NCBI GenBank assembly: GCA_903821605.1
Contig: CAIJLZ010000014.1
Span: 1 to 64,000 of the forward strand
Source of the DNA: an uncultured Sphingomonadales bacterium
GTDB lineage: Bacteria > Pseudomonadota > Alphaproteobacteria > Sphingomonadales > Sphingomonadaceae
Reading direction: 5' to 3'
Length of the DNA stretch: 64,000 nucleotides
Shown: positions 6,605 to 15,944 of the stretch, piece after piece
Layout: every line of letters begins with the position of its first letter
Numbering within the stretch: position 1 is the stretch's first letter
Position numbers and translations under genes: made by a program
The notes under the pieces: generated by a model
Seen by the model: the letters and a program-made list of their open reading frames with translations, nothing else
What the model was told of the DNA's origin: nothing
Database searches by the model: none

Positions 6605-6907
6605 TCAGGCGACGAGCGACTGCCACTCGGCCAACGCGGCCGAGCGGCGAAGCTTGTAGGTTTGACGATCGACGAGATGGCGTTCCTGAGAAAAGTGATT
6701 GTGAAAGGAGGCGTGAACCGAGGCGAATTTCTGTATGCTTTTCATTCGCCGGAACCGCTGCATGGCGCGCTCTCGTCGTCGGAACTGGAGGTGGGAATTT
6801 TCTGCCCGATTGTTTAGCCAGCGCCCCATCTCGCGTCGGTCAAGATTGCCAAGTTCACGCATCGCCGCTGGGTAGGATCGCAGCCCATCGGTGACGATTA
6901 GGCTCCT
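6605..6907 (-). pseudogene. IS6-family transposase C-terminal remnant
   Basis: LIVTDGLRSYPAAMRELGNLDRREMGRWLNNRAENSHLQFRRRERAMQRFRRMKSIQKFASVHASFHNHF; N-terminus missing. Confidence 0.88.
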
Positions 6908-7025
6908 GCGCAAACGGGCCGAAGCGGACCGTTCGTTAGCCTAACTAGGCTGCAACGGGTGCGCTATCGGTCAAACGTCAATATATGCTCACAGTTTGTG
7001 CGCAAAATCAGGCGTGTGACCGAAG

Positions 7026-7170: not shown

Positions 7171-10100
7171 TCAGGCCACCAACTCCGCGCCTGTCACCAC
7201 TTCGCAGTTGGCCAATGGCCCAAGCCGCTCGGTGAGCCACGCTGCCGGGTCCGGGATCAAATTCAGGTTGAACATCGAGGTCCGGACCTTCTGACCGGAT
7301 CCCTCAGGCCGGTAGGTCACCGCAGCCGAGGAGCGGGACATTTCGCTATTATAGAAGATCCTATAATAGCAATTTGTCCCGGTCCTCTGCCCGTCCTTCC
7401 GCGCCGCCTCGTAGTTTGGCCACAGGTCGGGGAAGCACTTCGCCCGGTCCGCGGCGTTGTCGAGAACTGCCCCGCGCACCGCCATCATGTCGGTGCGGTT
7501 GGGAACAAGGTCAGCCCAGTCGATCACCTCGTCTGCGGTGATGGGCAGGACGATATCCGTCAGCAGATCGACCTGAAGAGGGCTCTCGGCGGTGCGGTTG
7601 ACACCCCGGCCCCGTCCCAGCGCCTGAACCAGTTCAGCCTCACAGATATTCCAACGGATGGCCTCTGCAATCGGGTCGGGATGATGTTCCCCCATGACCA
7701 TGCGCGATCGACCATTAGGACGACGGATCACACGCTCGGTCAGCGGGTACCACCAGCTTTGGTTGTCATTATCCTCTTTGGGCGGCCGACCGGTGAGCGC
7801 AATTTGCAGCTTGGCGATCACGGCAGGTGCGGGAAGCGTGCGGCCCATGATGACCATGCCGGCGACAACGCCCCACCGATCGAGACCGCTCAGCGCGTTG
7901 AAGTGGGCGGTTTCCAGATTGGCCGGGAGTTCCCCCTCGGCGAGCGCCGCCATTGCCCGCATCTGTCCAATTGCGAGAACCGGCGCAGCGCCGCCACCAA
8001 TCTGTCTCGACCGGGCGGCAAGGTATGTCCGCAGGGCACGCAGGTTGTTGGCTGCAGTCGTGTGGTCCCGTTCTTTCGCCTGTGGCCCCGGCACCAGTGC
8101 CTTGCTGCTCACCGGGGCGCCCAGTACTTGGCGGATCCGCACATGCGGTGCTTTCGCGGCCACAGCGGGGGCGACGGCCATACCGGGCAGAAAGGGCGTA
8201 ACCAGTTCCTGCCGCATGGTCGCATCAATGTGCAGGACCGGGACCTTCTCGACCCACCCAGTCCGGATCGATGACCGCCACAGGAGGTCCAGCGACCTGA
8301 CCGTTCCATTGGGCGTATGCATCCTGCCCACCTGTACACCCCAGGCATCATGACCTGCCTCCAGCGCCTGGGCGAGGATTGACCACATCGCCGCGGCACG
8401 GCCCGGCGGAGCCCAGGCATGGCTGCGCCGCGGCATTACCGCGCTCAATCGCTTGGCGCGTTCCTCGGTGGACATGCCCGGCAGGATTTCCGGATCCCGG
8501 AGCCTGCCACGTTCGAGCTTTGCGGCATCCCGACAGATGGCAGAGGTCAACATTGCGGCCCGCAGGTCAGCCAGGCGCAGAGGACCTTGCCGGGTCCGCT
8601 CCAGCACCTTCCAAAGCTTCAGCCGGTGCTCGATCAGGAACTGGGTCTCGGGATAGTCATAGGCGTTCTTGTGGTCGTAGCAGCGCAGGTCCGCGTCATA
8701 GGGATCGAGGCTATCGACGGTAATCTGGACCGGATTATCGGCACCGCGAAGGCCGGACTGCCAGAACCCCTCGTCAATCACCAATAGTGCCGGCCGGCCG
8801 ATGGCCTTGGGCATGGCGTGGAACAGACTGTCATGCGCGCAGATGATCACCTGCACGGATTTGGCGAGCTGCTTCTGTCGCTGGTAGCCGCAAACTTCGT
8901 AATGCGGGCAATGGAAGATCTTGCTGTCGCGCTTCACCCCGCACACGGCCTGCTCGACCGATAGCTCGGCCGCCAGGGCATCGGCCTGCGCGTCGGGATC
9001 GCGGCACATGCGCTGGTCCGGATTGTCAGGTGCAGGATCGGGCGCGGTGCGTCCCTTCCATAGGACCGCAGCTATGCCCTCGGCAGCAAAGGCCGCAACC
9101 TGTTCTTCGCCCAGATCATGGCGCGGCACGGCAAAGACCACTTTGCCGCCGCTCAGCCTTTTGGCCGCCAAGGCCGTTATGATCTGCTCGCGCACCTGGC
9201 TGGTTTTGCCCAGCCCGACATCGACCGGCAGTCCCAGCATCGGTACCGGTGTGGTTTCGGCGCTCTCGGCATCATCCGGTTCTGCCAGAAGGTGATCGTG
9301 ATATGCGCTTGCGGCAGCCATGAACTCAGCTACCTGTCTGGCAAGTTCGGCGCGCGCCTCTGCGACATCATGACGGGGTTCGGGATAGGTCGGCTCACTG
9401 GCCGCCACCCACCGAGCCGAGGCAATACAGTCCCGCAGGGCTTGCTGACCCATCGCCTGCACGAGGTCATTCGCGTCGCCTGCGATCGGTGGAATGGCCA
9501 GCCGTGCATCAATGTCGCGCGCGGCCTGGGTCGCGGCCGTCACGCCCGGGTTGTCTGTGCGATCCGGCTTGTCGTCGTTGTCGGCGATGATTGTAAAGTC
9601 AGTCGTCGGATAACGCTGGCGTAGGACCCGGGCGACCCGCTGAAGGTTGCCAGCATCGAACGCGACAATCACCGGGTCACCTGTGACCTCATGGATGCTC
9701 GCCCCGGTTGCCCAACCTTCGCAGATCAGCAGATGGGGCGTGTCGGCAGCCCATTCGCCAATAACCGCAAAATGGTCGGCTTTGGCACCGCCGGTCAGAA
9801 ACCGCTTGTTGCCTTGCCGATCGATGCGCTGGAGCGTGTGGATGGCGCCGTTGATGTCGTGCAGGCCGATCACCAATCGCCCGGCCGTATCGATCAGGAT
9901 GCCGTGGGGCTGGATGCCCTTGGTGACCAGATAGGGATGGCCAGCTGGTGCCGGACTGGCCTCAGCAAGGACCTGCTGTGCCTCAACTCGGGCTTTCGCT
10001 GCCAGTTGTTCGCGGGAGGGTTCGGGAGCCTTGAGACGTGGTCTGGGAACCGCTTTGGGTGTCCCTGAGCCCGTTGGCCTGACACCGGTGCGTTCGGCGA

Positions 10101-10350
10101 CCCAGTCGCGGGCACGTTCCTGATCGCAGCCCAGTTCATGCGCAACGAGGGCGACAAATCCGCCGCCGTGTCCTGCCTCATGATCGAACCATTGTCCGGC
10201 CTTGGCACCGTCCACGCGGACCGACAGGCTGCCCTTACGTCGGTAGCGCCACTCTGTGCCCGTTTTGGCTGCTGGCTTGCCCAGAAGCTCGTGGAGAAGC
10301 TGTGGCAGCCGGTCGATCAATGCGGATTGGAATTGCGACGCGCCGCTCAT
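7171..10350 (-). CDS. large TOPRIM-domain primase with helicase/ATPase-like region, mobile-element replication type
   Basis: N-terminal primase-like RYRRKGSLSVRVDGAKAGQWFDHEAGHGGGFVALV; TOPRIM-like LICEGWATGASIHEVTG, VIVAFDAGNL, IIADNDD; Walker A-like VGLGKTS. Confidence 0.8.
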   Translation of the reverse strand: MSGASQFQSALIDRLPQLLHELLGKPAAKTGTEWRYRRKGSLSVRVDGAKAGQWFDHEAGHGGGFVALVAHELGCDQERARDWVAERTGVRPTGSGTPKAVPRPRLKAPEPSREQLAAKARVEAQQVLAEASPAPAGHPYLVTKGIQPHGILIDTAGRLVIGLHDINGAIHTLQRIDRQGNKRFLTGGAKADHFAVIGEWAADTPHLLICEGWATGASIHEVTGDPVIVAFDAGNLQRVARVLRQRYPTTDFTIIADNDDKPDRTDNPGVTAATQAARDIDARLAIPPIAGDANDLVQAMGQQALRDCIASARWVAASEPTYPEPRHDVAEARAELARQVAEFMAAASAYHDHLLAEPDDAESAETTPVPMLGLPVDVGLGKTSQVREQIITALAAKRLSGGKVVFAVPRHDLGEEQVAAFAAEGIAAVLWKGRTAPDPAPDNPDQRMCRDPDAQADALAAELSVEQAVCGVKRDSKIFHCPHYEVCGYQRQKQLAKSVQVIICAHDSLFHAMPKAIGRPALLVIDEGFWQSGLRGADNPVQITVDSLDPYDADLRCYDHKNAYDYPETQFLIEHRLKLWKVLERTRQGPLRLADLRAAMLTSAICRDAAKLERGRLRDPEILPGMSTEERAKRLSAVMPRRSHAWAPPGRAAAMWSILAQALEAGHDAWGVQVGRMHTPNGTVRSLDLLWRSSIRTGWVEKVPVLHIDATMRQELVTPFLPGMAVAPAVAAKAPHVRIRQVLGAPVSSKALVPGPQAKERDHTTAANNLRALRTYLAARSRQIGGGAAPVLAIGQMRAMAALAEGELPANLETAHFNALSGLDRWGVVAGMVIMGRTLPAPAVIAKLQIALTGRPPKEDNDNQSWWYPLTERVIRRPNGRSRMVMGEHHPDPIAEAIRWNICEAELVQALGRGRGVNRTAESPLQVDLLTDIVLPITADEVIDWADLVPNRTDMMAVRGAVLDNAADRAKCFPDLWPNYEAARKDGQRTGTNCYYRIFYNSEMSRSSAAVTYRPEGSGQKVRTSMFNLNLIPDPAAWLTERLGPLANCEVVTGAELVA
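7335..7380. repeat. 46-bp imperfect palindrome inside the primase C-terminal coding region
   Basis: GGGACATTTCGCTATTATAG-AAGATC-CTATAATAGCAATTTGTCCC; inner 10-bp arms perfect, 17/20 overall. Confidence 0.85.
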
Positions 10351-10419
10351 GCGAGCGCCCGCCTTCCACCCGGACGGGCGGTGAAAATTGGATCAGGAGA
10401 TTGTGCGCAAGCCACGCGT

Positions 10420-10450
10420 GTCGTGCCCTCGAAAGTTCAGAGGGCACGAC
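10420..10450. repeat. perfect 11-bp inverted repeat upstream of the primase gene
   Basis: GTCGTGCCCTC-GAAAGTTCA-GAGGGCACGAC. Confidence 0.9.
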
Positions 10451-10522
10451 AAAAGTCATCATTTTTGGGGCGCCGAAACGTTCCAAGCGGTCGCCGGTCA
10501 GAACCAGTTTCGGAGGTTCACA

Positions 10523-10541
10523 GGGTTGAACCGTTCAACCC
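10523..10541. promoter_or_regulatory. palindromic operator candidate, copy 1
   Basis: GGGTTGAACCGTTCAACCC, perfect palindrome around one central base; 17-bp core repeats at 11388-11404. Confidence 0.75.
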
Positions 10542-10561
10542 TTCGGTGCGCAGATGCGATA

Positions 10562-10615
10562 TATCGATCACGAATTCGCCGTTTCATGATCGATAAGTCC
10601 GCCGGTTATCGATCA
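10562..10615. repeat. three iteron-like copies of TATCGATCA (middle copy inverted)
   Basis: TATCGATCA at 10562-10570 and 10607-10615, reverse complement TGATCGATA at 10587-10595. Confidence 0.75.
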
Positions 10616-10618
10616 CGG

Positions 10619-11308
10619 CTACCAGCTACGCTTGCTGCCACCACGCTGCGAAGACGGCATGCGGATGATGGTCGCCATGGCCTTGGCGAGATTGGCCGAC
10701 AGCGGTTCGCCCTCGATGTGCTGATCCATGAACCAGTCGACCAACGCCTCTTTCTTCGACTGGTCCATATCGGTGATCCGATTCTCCGAGATCGCCAGTT
10801 TGATCAGTTCAAGATAGGGCGTGGTGTATTCGGTAGGCTCGATTGGCCTCTGCGGCGGCAACGTCCAGATCGCCTCGACCATGAACCGGGGCACCTGGAT
10901 GTCGATATATTCGCCATCCTGAAGTTCCAGCCGCTCGGGCAGGCTGCCGTCGTCCATATGCAGCACCCCGCTGATCCAGTGCTCTGGCGGGATCCAGACC
11001 AACTGGCTTGAGTGGAAGATCCACTCCCGCGCATCATGGTCCGGGAATGTGGGGTTGCGATGCTGTGAAAGGCGTCCTTGTGCGTGAACACTGCCTTGCC
11101 GCAACGCCTGCCAGAGCTGACGCTGCCCATCGAGATTGATGGTCTGCCACCGTGATGTTCCGGGTGCCGTTGGCGACAGGATCTTGCCGATATCGAGCTC
11201 AACCTTTTCACCCGTTGTCGCCTCGTACCGCACACGACAAATCCGGCAGATATGCTTGTAGGCTTGATTGAGGGACCAGGCGCTGTGGTTGAGTTTATCG
11301 ATAGGCAT
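10619..11308 (-). CDS. hypothetical protein, mobile-element associated
   Basis: Long ORF with start placed at MPIDKLNHSAWSLNQAY; no family recognised; lies between the two palindromic operator copies. Confidence 0.65.
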   Translation of the reverse strand: MPIDKLNHSAWSLNQAYKHICRICRVRYEATTGEKVELDIGKILSPTAPGTSRWQTINLDGQRQLWQALRQGSVHAQGRLSQHRNPTFPDHDAREWIFHSSQLVWIPPEHWISGVLHMDDGSLPERLELQDGEYIDIQVPRFMVEAIWTLPPQRPIEPTEYTTPYLELIKLAISENRITDMDQSKKEALVDWFMDQHIEGEPLSANLAKAMATIIRMPSSQRGGSKRSW

Positions 11309-11387
11309 TTGCGTTCCGAATCGTGAGTGGGCGAGACTGGAACATAAATAGAACAATAATGCCCTGCAAGACCGCTACGGCGCAAAA

Positions 11388-11405
11388 GGTTGAACCGTTC
11401 AACCC
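11388..11405. promoter_or_regulatory. palindromic operator candidate, copy 2
   Basis: GGTTGAACCGTTCAACC plus shared 3' CTTC with copy 1; between divergent genes 10619-11308(-) and 11486(+). Confidence 0.75.
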
Positions 11406-11485
11406 TTCTGGGGGTAAGGCTGTGAACTACAGGAGAACCCCTTCGAACGTAGCGGTGAATGGCCTGATTCGGCGATCCTGCGGGC

Positions 11486-11740
11486 ATGATCAACGCCGAC
11501 ATTTCCATCACCGACGCCATGCCTCGGACCGGGGCGATGAAGCGTCCGAACGCGCTCCATCCCAGCCATATGAAGCCCGCCGAGCGGCGTGCCGAACTTT
11601 GCGCAATTCTGGGCTTGGGGATTGTCCGCCTGCACCTGCGCCGGGCGGGTCAACTATCTGAGGGAAGTGGAGACTTTCCGCTACACTTCGCTGCCGAACA
11701 GAGCGGTAGTGCAGTTCCAACTCGAAGGAGTGCTGCATGA
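11486..11740 (+). CDS. small hypothetical protein, first gene of recombinase operon
   Basis: 84-aa ORF whose stop overlaps the DUF2924 start (ATGA). Confidence 0.6.
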   Translation: MINADISITDAMPRTGAMKRPNALHPSHMKPAERRAELCAILGLGIVRLHLRRAGQLSEGSGDFPLHFAAEQSGSAVPTRRSAA

Positions 11741-12189
11741 CCATAACCAACCCGATCCCGGCGCGCCTGGCTGCGCTGAAGACCATGTCAGGCACCGAAC
11801 TGAAGAAGCAGTGGCGCGCTCTGTTCGATACCGAGCCGCCGCTGTTCAACCGGCGCTACATCGAGACCAGGCTGGGCTACCGCATACAGGAACTGACCCA
11901 TGGCGGCCTCAAGCCCGAGACCGTGCGACGTCTGCAGGAACTGGGGGAACAACTGGACGGCGGGAACATCACCACCCGCCGCATCCGCACGGACCTCAAA
12001 CCCATCATCGGCACCCGGCTGATCCGTGAATGGCAGGGCACCGAGCACTGCGTGACGGTCACCCGCGACGGCTTTGAATGGCAGGGCCGGCCCTACAAAT
12101 CCCTATCCGCCATCGCCCGTACCATCACCGGCACGCGCTGGAACGGCTGGGTCTTTTTCGGTCTCAAGCACCACAGGAGGGCGGCATGA
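11737..12189 (+). CDS. DUF2924 domain-containing protein
   Basis: RLGYRIQELTHGGL, GTRLIREWQGTEHCVTVTRDGFEWQGRPYKSLSAIARTITGTRWNGWVFFGL. Confidence 0.9.
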   Translation: MTITNPIPARLAALKTMSGTELKKQWRALFDTEPPLFNRRYIETRLGYRIQELTHGGLKPETVRRLQELGEQLDGGNITTRRIRTDLKPIIGTRLIREWQGTEHCVTVTRDGFEWQGRPYKSLSAIARTITGTRWNGWVFFGLKHHRRAA

Positions 12190-13481
12190 ACACGCCGGTC
12201 ACGCGCAAGCTGCGCTGCGCGGTCTATACGCGCAAATCATCGGAAGAAGGTCTGGAACAGGAGTTTAACAGCCTCCATGCCCAGCGGGAAGCCTGCGAGG
12301 CCTATATCGCCAGCCATCGCGGAGAAGGCTGGGTGCTGGTCCGCGATCAGTATGACGACGGCGGTATTTCCGGTGGCACGTTGGAACGCCCTGCGCTGCA
12401 ACGCCTGCTGGCGGACATCGAAGACGGATTGGTTGATGTCGTGGTGGTCTACAAGATCGACCGCCTGTCGCGCTCGCTCATGGACTTCGCCAAGCTGGTC
12501 GAGGTGTTCGATCGCAATGAGGTGACGTTCGTCTCCGTCACACAGTCGTTCAACACCACCAACAGCATGGGCCGCCTGACCTTGAACGTGCTGCTGTCAT
12601 TTGCCCAGTTCGAGCGCGAGGTGACCGGCGAACGCATTCGTGACAAGATTGCGGCCTCCCGCGCCAAGGGGATGTGGATGGGTGGCTGCCCGCCGCTGGG
12701 ATATGACGTGCAGGCCCGCAAACTGGTGGTGAACGACACCGAAGCTGCCCACGTCCGTTACATCTTCGACCAGTTCGCGCAGTGCGGTTCGGCGACAGTC
12801 ATGCTGCGGGACCTGCGTGACCGCGGGATCACCACCAAGCAGGGTGGGATCATTACCAAAGGGTTCCTGCACCGGCTGATGAGGAACCGGGTCTATCTGG
12901 GGGAAGCCGTCCACAAGGGCACCAGTTATCCCGGCGAGCACCAAGGGATCGTCTCCCAGGACGCCTGGGACAAGGTCCACGCCATCTTGATAGAAAGCCC
13001 CCGCAAGCGGGCGGCGCACACGCGCTGCAACACGCCTGCATTGCTCAAAGGCCTGCTCTGGGGACCGGACGGCGCAGCGTTCTCGCCGACCCACACCCGC
13101 AAGGGCGGCAAGCTTTACCGATACTATGTCAGCCAGTCCGTGCTGCGCCATGGCGCCGGTGCCTGTCCGGTCAGCAGGGTACCAGCCGCCGAGATCGAGA
13201 GCGCCATCATCGAGCAGTTGCGCGCCATCTTCCGTCAGCCAGAAATCATGGCTGGTTCGGCAAAGGCAGCCAAAGGCTATCTGCCTGTCATCACCGAAGA
13301 CGAAGCACGGGAAGCCCTGACCACGCTGGAGCCGATGTGGGACGAACTGTTCCCGGCCGAGCAGGCCCGCATCATGCAGTTGCTGGTCGAGCGGGTCGAC
13401 ATCGGCACCGACGGCTTTGACGTTCAGCTGCGGCTCGACGGCATGGCTACATTTGCACGCGAGATGAGGGAGGCAGCATGA
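12186..13481 (+). CDS. large serine recombinase (resolvase/invertase family with recombinase domain)
   Basis: CAVYTRKSSEEGLEQEFNSLHAQREACEAYI, YKIDRLSRSLMDFAKL, SFAQFEREVTGERIRDKIAASRAKGMWMGG. Confidence 0.95.
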   Translation: MNTPVTRKLRCAVYTRKSSEEGLEQEFNSLHAQREACEAYIASHRGEGWVLVRDQYDDGGISGGTLERPALQRLLADIEDGLVDVVVVYKIDRLSRSLMDFAKLVEVFDRNEVTFVSVTQSFNTTNSMGRLTLNVLLSFAQFEREVTGERIRDKIAASRAKGMWMGGCPPLGYDVQARKLVVNDTEAAHVRYIFDQFAQCGSATVMLRDLRDRGITTKQGGIITKGFLHRLMRNRVYLGEAVHKGTSYPGEHQGIVSQDAWDKVHAILIESPRKRAAHTRCNTPALLKGLLWGPDGAAFSPTHTRKGGKLYRYYVSQSVLRHGAGACPVSRVPAAEIESAIIEQLRAIFRQPEIMAGSAKAAKGYLPVITEDEAREALTTLEPMWDELFPAEQARIMQLLVERVDIGTDGFDVQLRLDGMATFAREMREAA

Positions 13482-13855
13482 CCGAGATCGTAACCGTCCA
13501 TGTCCCCTTCCACATTCGCAAGCGCGGCGGGCGCAAGGAGATGATCCTGCCCGACGCTGCGCTGGTCCAGCACCGCCATGTCGACAACACCCTGATCAAG
13601 GGGTTGGCGCGGGCATTCCGGTGGAAGCGGATGCTTGATGCCGGGGCTTGTCCTACCCTTGGCGATCTGGCCGCGAGCGAGAAGATCTCGCCCTCTTATC
13701 TGACCCGTGTCCTGCGGCTGACCTTGCTGGCGCCGGACATCATCGATGCGATCCTCGATGGCCAACTGGGGCCTGACACCACGCTGGCGACGCTGATGGA
13801 GCCGTTCCCGGTCGATTGGGATGCGCAACGCCAGCATTTTGCGATGTGCGCTTAA
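13478..13855 (+). CDS. small HTH-containing protein coupled to recombinase
   Basis: ATGA overlap with recombinase; LAASEKISPSYLTRVLRLTLLAPDIIDAILDG resembles an HTH. Confidence 0.65.
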   Translation: MTEIVTVHVPFHIRKRGGRKEMILPDAALVQHRHVDNTLIKGLARAFRWKRMLDAGACPTLGDLAASEKISPSYLTRVLRLTLLAPDIIDAILDGQLGPDTTLATLMEPFPVDWDAQRQHFAMCA

Positions 13856-15722: not shown

Positions 15723-15867
15723 TAATCCGGGCTTAGAGAATGGATTTGGCGTTCCAGCCGCAGGGGCCGGTCAACAGCCCACTGCCATAACACTTGAATA
15801 TAACGGGCTTTTCGAGACCCATCTGGAATATAGAATGATTCCAATAGGATATGTGGCGGAGCGGGAG
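15723..15867. repeat. 145-bp direct repeat, copy B, overlapping the 3' end of intact tRNA-Ser
   Basis: See copy A at 117-261. Confidence 0.9.
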
Positions 15868-15944
15868 GGATTCGAACCCTCGATACGGTTTTGCCGTATA
15901 CTCACTTTCCAGGCGAGCGCCTTCGACCACTCGGCCACCGCTCC
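15854..15944 (-). tRNA. tRNA-Ser(GGA)
   Basis: GGAGCGGTGGCCGAGTGGTCGAAGGCGCTCGCCTGGAAAGTGAG...GGGTTCGAATCCCTCCCGCTCCGCCA; long variable arm; anticodon loop CTGGAAA. Confidence 0.97.

Follow-up and report, generated by a model that had tools for sequence, protein, structure and literature searches.

The window (the whole 64-kb stretch of DNA analysed here) carries an island in which the gene for a TOPRIM primase/helicase-like replication protein and the gene for a 229-residue protein, P0001, lie on the minus strand, divergent from a DUF2924-recombinase operon. Palindromic sites, A and B, lie upstream of the two minus-strand genes. The genes and features around them are as follows.

7171..10350, minus strand: TOPRIM primase/helicase-like replication protein, 1059 aa (Pfam Toprim_3, 3.4e-12; PHROG DNA primase, 4.8e-61)
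10474..10491, minus strand: second conserved motif ACCGCTTGGAACGTTTCG, in the stretch separating the primase gene from site A
10522..10542, no strand: site A, the palindrome AGGGTTGAACCGTTCAACCCT, which precedes the primase gene and is conserved at this place in 37 loci
10619..11308, minus strand: P0001, 229 aa, the leading candidate binder, with a C-terminal three-helix region and a conserved QRGG-(A/S)KR tail
11341..11369, minus strand: inferred P0001 promoter (-35 TTGCAG at 11369-11364, 17-bp spacer, -10 TATGTT at 11346-11341)
11388..11404, no strand: site B, the palindrome GGTTGAACCGTTCAACC, which precedes the P0001 gene and lies between it and the divergent recombinase operon
11486..11740, plus strand: small ORF heading the DUF2924-recombinase operon (alignment with loci L155 and L156)
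11737..12189, plus strand: DUF2924 protein (Pfam PF11149, 4.5e-51)
12186..13481, plus strand: large serine recombinase (Pfam Resolvase, Recombinase, Zn_ribbon_recom)
13478..13855, plus strand: P0002, HTH-like recombinase-associated protein (PHROG 14161 'recombinase', 1.3e-37; HTH-like segment)

On the recombinase side, a tRNA-Ser(gga) gene lies at 15854-15944 (minus strand), just past the 13852-15513 gene, and L029 and L047 likewise have tRNA genes on this side, so a tRNA gene may be where the island resides. Beyond the primase there is a fragment of an IS240/IS6-type DDE transposase (6605-6913, minus strand), and the island may be truncated at this end. Between P0001 and site A, three copies of TATCGATCA occur within 54 bp (10562-10615), two direct and one inverted; they might be sites for another regulator or iterons.

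An earlier note on this DNA had counted exactly two copies of GGTTGAACCGTTCAACC, one before the primase gene and one between the 10619-11308 gene and the recombinase operon. The count, the placement and the gene positions were all confirmed, with exact copies at 10524-10540 and 11388-11404 and none elsewhere in the window. Allowing up to three mismatches gave four matches in the window, all at the two palindrome places (0.17 in shuffles). The whole 2.67-Mb genome also holds exactly two perfect copies, against a chance expectation of ~0.0002, so there is no crowd of unrelated copies and the motif is element-specific. Other genomic matches carry at least two mismatches (two or three) and are about as frequent as those of a reversed control pattern, the nearest of them sitting within long open frames. 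Site A is a perfect 21-bp palindrome, AGGGTTGAACCGTTCAACCCT, and site B has arms of 8 bp. The CCTTC flank that had been noted beside both copies does belong to a common stretch (26 bp, 92%), but it is partly the outer palindrome arm, since the first copy extends to 21 bp. In the closest relative (G261) one of the copies, AAGGGTTGAACCGTTCAACCCTT, has perfect 11-bp arms.

Sites A and B have the same orientation relative to both minus-strand genes. Reading the two copies as att sites, direct repeats bounding an 864-bp cassette, is disfavoured because the sites of relatives hold promoter-relative positions, whereas their distance from each other changes with the cargo. The alphaproteobacterial LexA (SOS) box is a direct repeat, GTTC-N7-GTTC; the palindrome, read by eye, does not have this form, its GAAC and GTTC words being inverted and adjacent.

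Clear P0001 homologues were found in three other genomes among the 401 of the order searched (90%, 72% and 40% identity), each adjoining a primase gene; two more marginal matches (E about 1e-4 to 1e-3), in unrelated-looking frames, were left out of this count. A primase-profile scan yielded 44 loci from GTDB genomes plus further loci from viral contigs. In total, related elements number ~50, alphaproteobacterial, and the sites recur upstream of P0001 and upstream of the primase; several loci are of recent common ancestry, and counts of loci are therefore not independent. The usual layout has HTH, recombinase and DUF2924 genes on one strand. Divergent from these comes P0001, followed by a cargo slot (0 to 4.7 kb) and then the primase. 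Plasmid and phage collections gave no P0001 match, nor did a search of viral contigs. A motif-first scan of viral contigs returned four known elements and one contig without element genes (L196), where the match is probably due to chance.

Several of these elements have features of their own. The slots between P0001 and primase in L030, L032, L034, L060, L078 and L089 contain genes for AAA_14/DUF4143 proteins (PDC-S01 match), AEP-TOTE primase-helicase or SNF2 helicases, and the SNF2 helicase of L034 matches DpdE/ZorD models. In L030 the cargo gene is bracketed by two identical palindromes, and a Prim-Pol domain is fused to the N-terminus of the primase (L030:4034-7834), a trait of part of the window clade; the ORF layout of L032 suggests such a fusion too. 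The primase match of the closest relative (L023, G261:C31) has a TGA within it and stops at residue 923 of the 1059, and this copy may be decaying.

A symmetric matrix placed the site (score at least 13) before the primase in 37 loci and before P0001 in 21, compared with scores below 9.3 for 99% of random 500-bp windows drawn from these loci. Because the sites used to build the matrix had first been noticed in these very loci, the fixed position and the controls outweigh the scores. On the primase side almost all sites lie between -374 and -377 relative to the primase domain; in the window clade the position is -209. Elsewhere in 719 kb only a handful of sites score at least 13, mostly within three elements into which a cargo gene has been inserted. 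The operator forms of the two clades are GGTTGAAC and GGGTGAAC; the larger clade form, GGGGTGAACCGTTCACCCC, has both arms changed. At arm position 4 the change from T-A to G-C is symmetric in part, and covariation of the arms is only partial, since 10 of 22 distinct sites show complementarity there. The most conserved core is the half-site GGG-n-(T/G)-GAA, and in many larger-clade elements the site upstream of P0001 is imperfect or a half-site only. By these sequence comparisons the palindrome is a real, conserved regulatory site.

The distribution of the site follows P0001. The 19-mer GGGKTGAACCGTTCAMCCC is present in 4 of 401 order genomes, exactly those with a clear P0001 adjoining the primase, and in none of the 397 others. 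Co-occurrence with a regulator and absence elsewhere (4/4 versus 0/397, kinship uncorrected) are features of an operator; formal probabilities of this co-occurrence are very small, but the genomes are related and the events not independent. Among 30 DUF2924 modules of the order, the site accompanies all four with P0001 and none of the 26 without it, even though two of the modules lacking both have DUF2924 proteins that are 78-79% identical. The homology of the L155 and L156 modules to the window begins within the small ORF at 11486 and stops short of site B. Primases without P0001 (L049, L085 and L087) also have no site, a contrast that counts as one event since they form one clade. A conserved 175-aa ORF following the primase was considered as binder and excluded because it is absent from the window clade, yet present in the site-less L085 and L087.

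By this distribution the site is evidently part of the P0001/primase module, not of the recombinase module. A special link to recombination is not indicated, because recombinase modules without P0001 lack the site (0/26), and for the recombinase operon, control through the site is a possibility on grounds of position alone. The coordination of three transcription units proposed earlier therefore survives in part: there appears to be one operator-type site for the primase gene and the 10619-11308 gene, but the recombination link falls away, though site B lies in the divergent intergenic region. The 10619-11308 protein, P0001, had been named among the candidate binders and, given this co-occurrence, is now the leading one.

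A promoter of the form TTGnnn-17-TATGTT (or TACGTT) lies ahead of P0001 in 42 loci. In 37 of the 39 loci with a recognisable half-site (variants picked by eye), the half-site starts 33-38 bp before the -35 element, giving a conserved palindrome at a fixed distance from a promoter, as in an operator. In the window the inferred P0001 promoter is 18 bp downstream of site B, which puts the palindrome centre near -62. A centre near -62 is a classical position for a class I activator. The P0001 promoter rests on conservation, as a simple sigma-70 scan of 10300-11760 gave no consensus promoter; for the primase and the recombinase operon none could be assigned with confidence. The palindrome's TTGAAC had been likened to a -35 element, and promoter occlusion had been suggested. 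This does not fit the predicted geometry, because site B sits upstream of the -35 element at activator-like spacing: the window and 36 relatives have the P0001 promoter downstream of the site, and only in L041 and L050 does TTGAAC take the -35 place, an arrangement that fits repression.

P0001 itself has no match in PHROGs, NCBIfam or PADLOC and none in Pfam above the cut-off; the sub-threshold Pfam matches (0.06-0.11) include one of HTH_Tnp_Tc5 to residues 187-216. In an AlphaFold model the mean pLDDT is 77 over the full length and 83 over the C-terminal 71 residues, which form three helices with a conserved basic tail and invariant basic residues. Fold comparisons with the whole protein and with this region returned no significant PDB or viral match. 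DNA binding by P0001 is therefore a lead rather than a finding. The C-terminal region recurs in more distant proteins, and in three of the loci examined, from small alphaproteobacterial genomes (L184, L185 and L188), their genes adjoin a TOPRIM primase gene. Judged by this shared region, the P0001 family is wider than the window element.

Before the primase, the larger clade has a more elaborate arrangement. In 37 of its loci the palindrome is the clearest among several related sites, at roughly -420, -375, -342, -280 and -240; these four to five G3-4...C3-4 sites extend over ~190 bp around an AT-richer stretch and are followed by ~190 nt of near-constant length before the primase. The motif ACCGSTTNNDACGTYKCG occurs in the latter stretch in 50 of 62 primase upstream regions, including the window (10474-10491, minus strand), and is absent from P0001-less elements. 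Complementary segments hinted at RNA structure in the leader that separates the array from the primase, but with weak covariation (-0.25 kcal/mol) none is claimed.

Taken together, we put at about even the chance that the palindrome serves as operator for a regulator encoded by the element, most likely P0001, which would control its own gene and the primase gene in a family of recombinase-borne alphaproteobacterial islands. Comparison of the loci establishes the conservation of the site, its fixed position, its co-occurrence with P0001 and its independence from the recombinase module and P0002. From these we infer that P0001 binds the palindrome, directly or in complex. A P0001 dimer at site B, near -62 of the P0001 promoter, would more plausibly activate from this class I position than occlude; activation is favoured over repression by position only. 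At site A, along with the accompanying related sites in the larger clade, binding would switch on or limit expression of the primase and thereby affect replication. More tentatively, P0001 could represent a new DNA-binding family, as its first member to be recognised, acting as an autoactivating switch and, via the iteron-like arrays before the primase, as a replication initiator or licensing factor for these widespread islands.

The main rival sees the sites as iterons of an island replication origin, to which the primase/helicase, or else P0001 in the role of initiator, would bind, with the site upstream of P0001 serving secondary autoregulation. The array of the larger clade, with its AT-richer stretch and second conserved motif, is what such an origin might look like; the primase itself could bind the sites, and P0001 relatives adjoin primases in distant genomes too. 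Against this, primases about as divergent (51-52%) have no site when P0001 is missing, the window has a single palindromic site before the primase, and L041 has none there but one at P0001. The conserved -62 geometry at P0001 is moreover a signature of transcription, and we consider an origin rather unlikely as the primary role.

We give similarly low weight to a model in which P0001 represses both units, site B being an upstream operator that acts without occlusion or by looping. The pairing of a repressor gene with a replication operon is known (pRN1 orf56/orf904, PMC4234260), and L041 and L050 carry the palindrome on the -35 element. The activator-like spacing upstream of -35 in 37 of 39 loci speaks for activation instead, as does an inferred promoter that is weak by the sigma-70 consensus.

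The model of the earlier note with the HTH protein at 13478-13855 as binder, coordinating replication with recombination by occlusion, has in its favour that the site lies between divergent units and that P0002 has an HTH-like segment and a PHROG 'recombinase' match. It is now highly improbable: close versions of P0002 occur without the site (L062, L155 and L156), the site is kept where P0002 is replaced by a version only 24-33% identical (L059, L066, L075 and L082), and the promoter geometry is against occlusion, making P0002 an unlikely binder. Binding by a host transcription factor is just as improbable, the motif being absent from 397 other order genomes and the rest of the host genome, even if palindromic operators are typical of host regulators and nearly all named hosts of related elements are alphaproteobacteria.

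On the preferred reading, an operator for P0001, the isolated palindrome becomes part of a testable circuit in which a single uncharacterised protein would act through one operator on two promoters. The circuit is conserved across many alphaproteobacterial families and absent outside them. Should P0001 be the switch, it would offer a way to induce excision and replication in an overlooked family of islands, whose cargo between P0001 and the primase includes genes matching defence-system models.

Several known systems bear comparison with this circuit. Primase-helicase proteins such as phage P4 alpha read iteron origins, with the iteron sequence GGTGAACAG. Like such systems, the island combines a TOPRIM primase/helicase with repeated GGTGAAC-like sites upstream; the sites here differ in being inverted palindromes tied to a separate protein, and any origin is putative. 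The pRN1 replicon, with a repressor and a primase-helicase (orf56/orf904, PMC4234260), likewise pairs a small regulator gene with a multifunctional primase-helicase gene, but it is an archaeal plasmid with an archaeo-eukaryotic primase and an origin that is a stem-loop, not iterons. In Gram-negative PICIs, AlpA activates its own promoter and drives island replication (EcCICFT073; PMC6092414). No similarity between P0001 and any named regulator family was detected, and we do not claim PICI membership, since comparison with Pfam, PHROGs, NCBIfam and PADLOC identified no AlpA or Stl/Rpr-type regulator in it. PICIs are also marked by induction and packaging through a helper phage. The integrase here is a large serine recombinase, divergently transcribed. 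In PICIs an iteron origin flanks an AT-rich region 3' of rep; repeated sites exist here too, but 5' of the primase, and would be at most a putative origin. The likeness lies in the logic: a small regulator gene and a primase/replication gene within an island, together an element-specific replication switch with an autoregulated promoter, as shown for AlpA and proposed for P0001.
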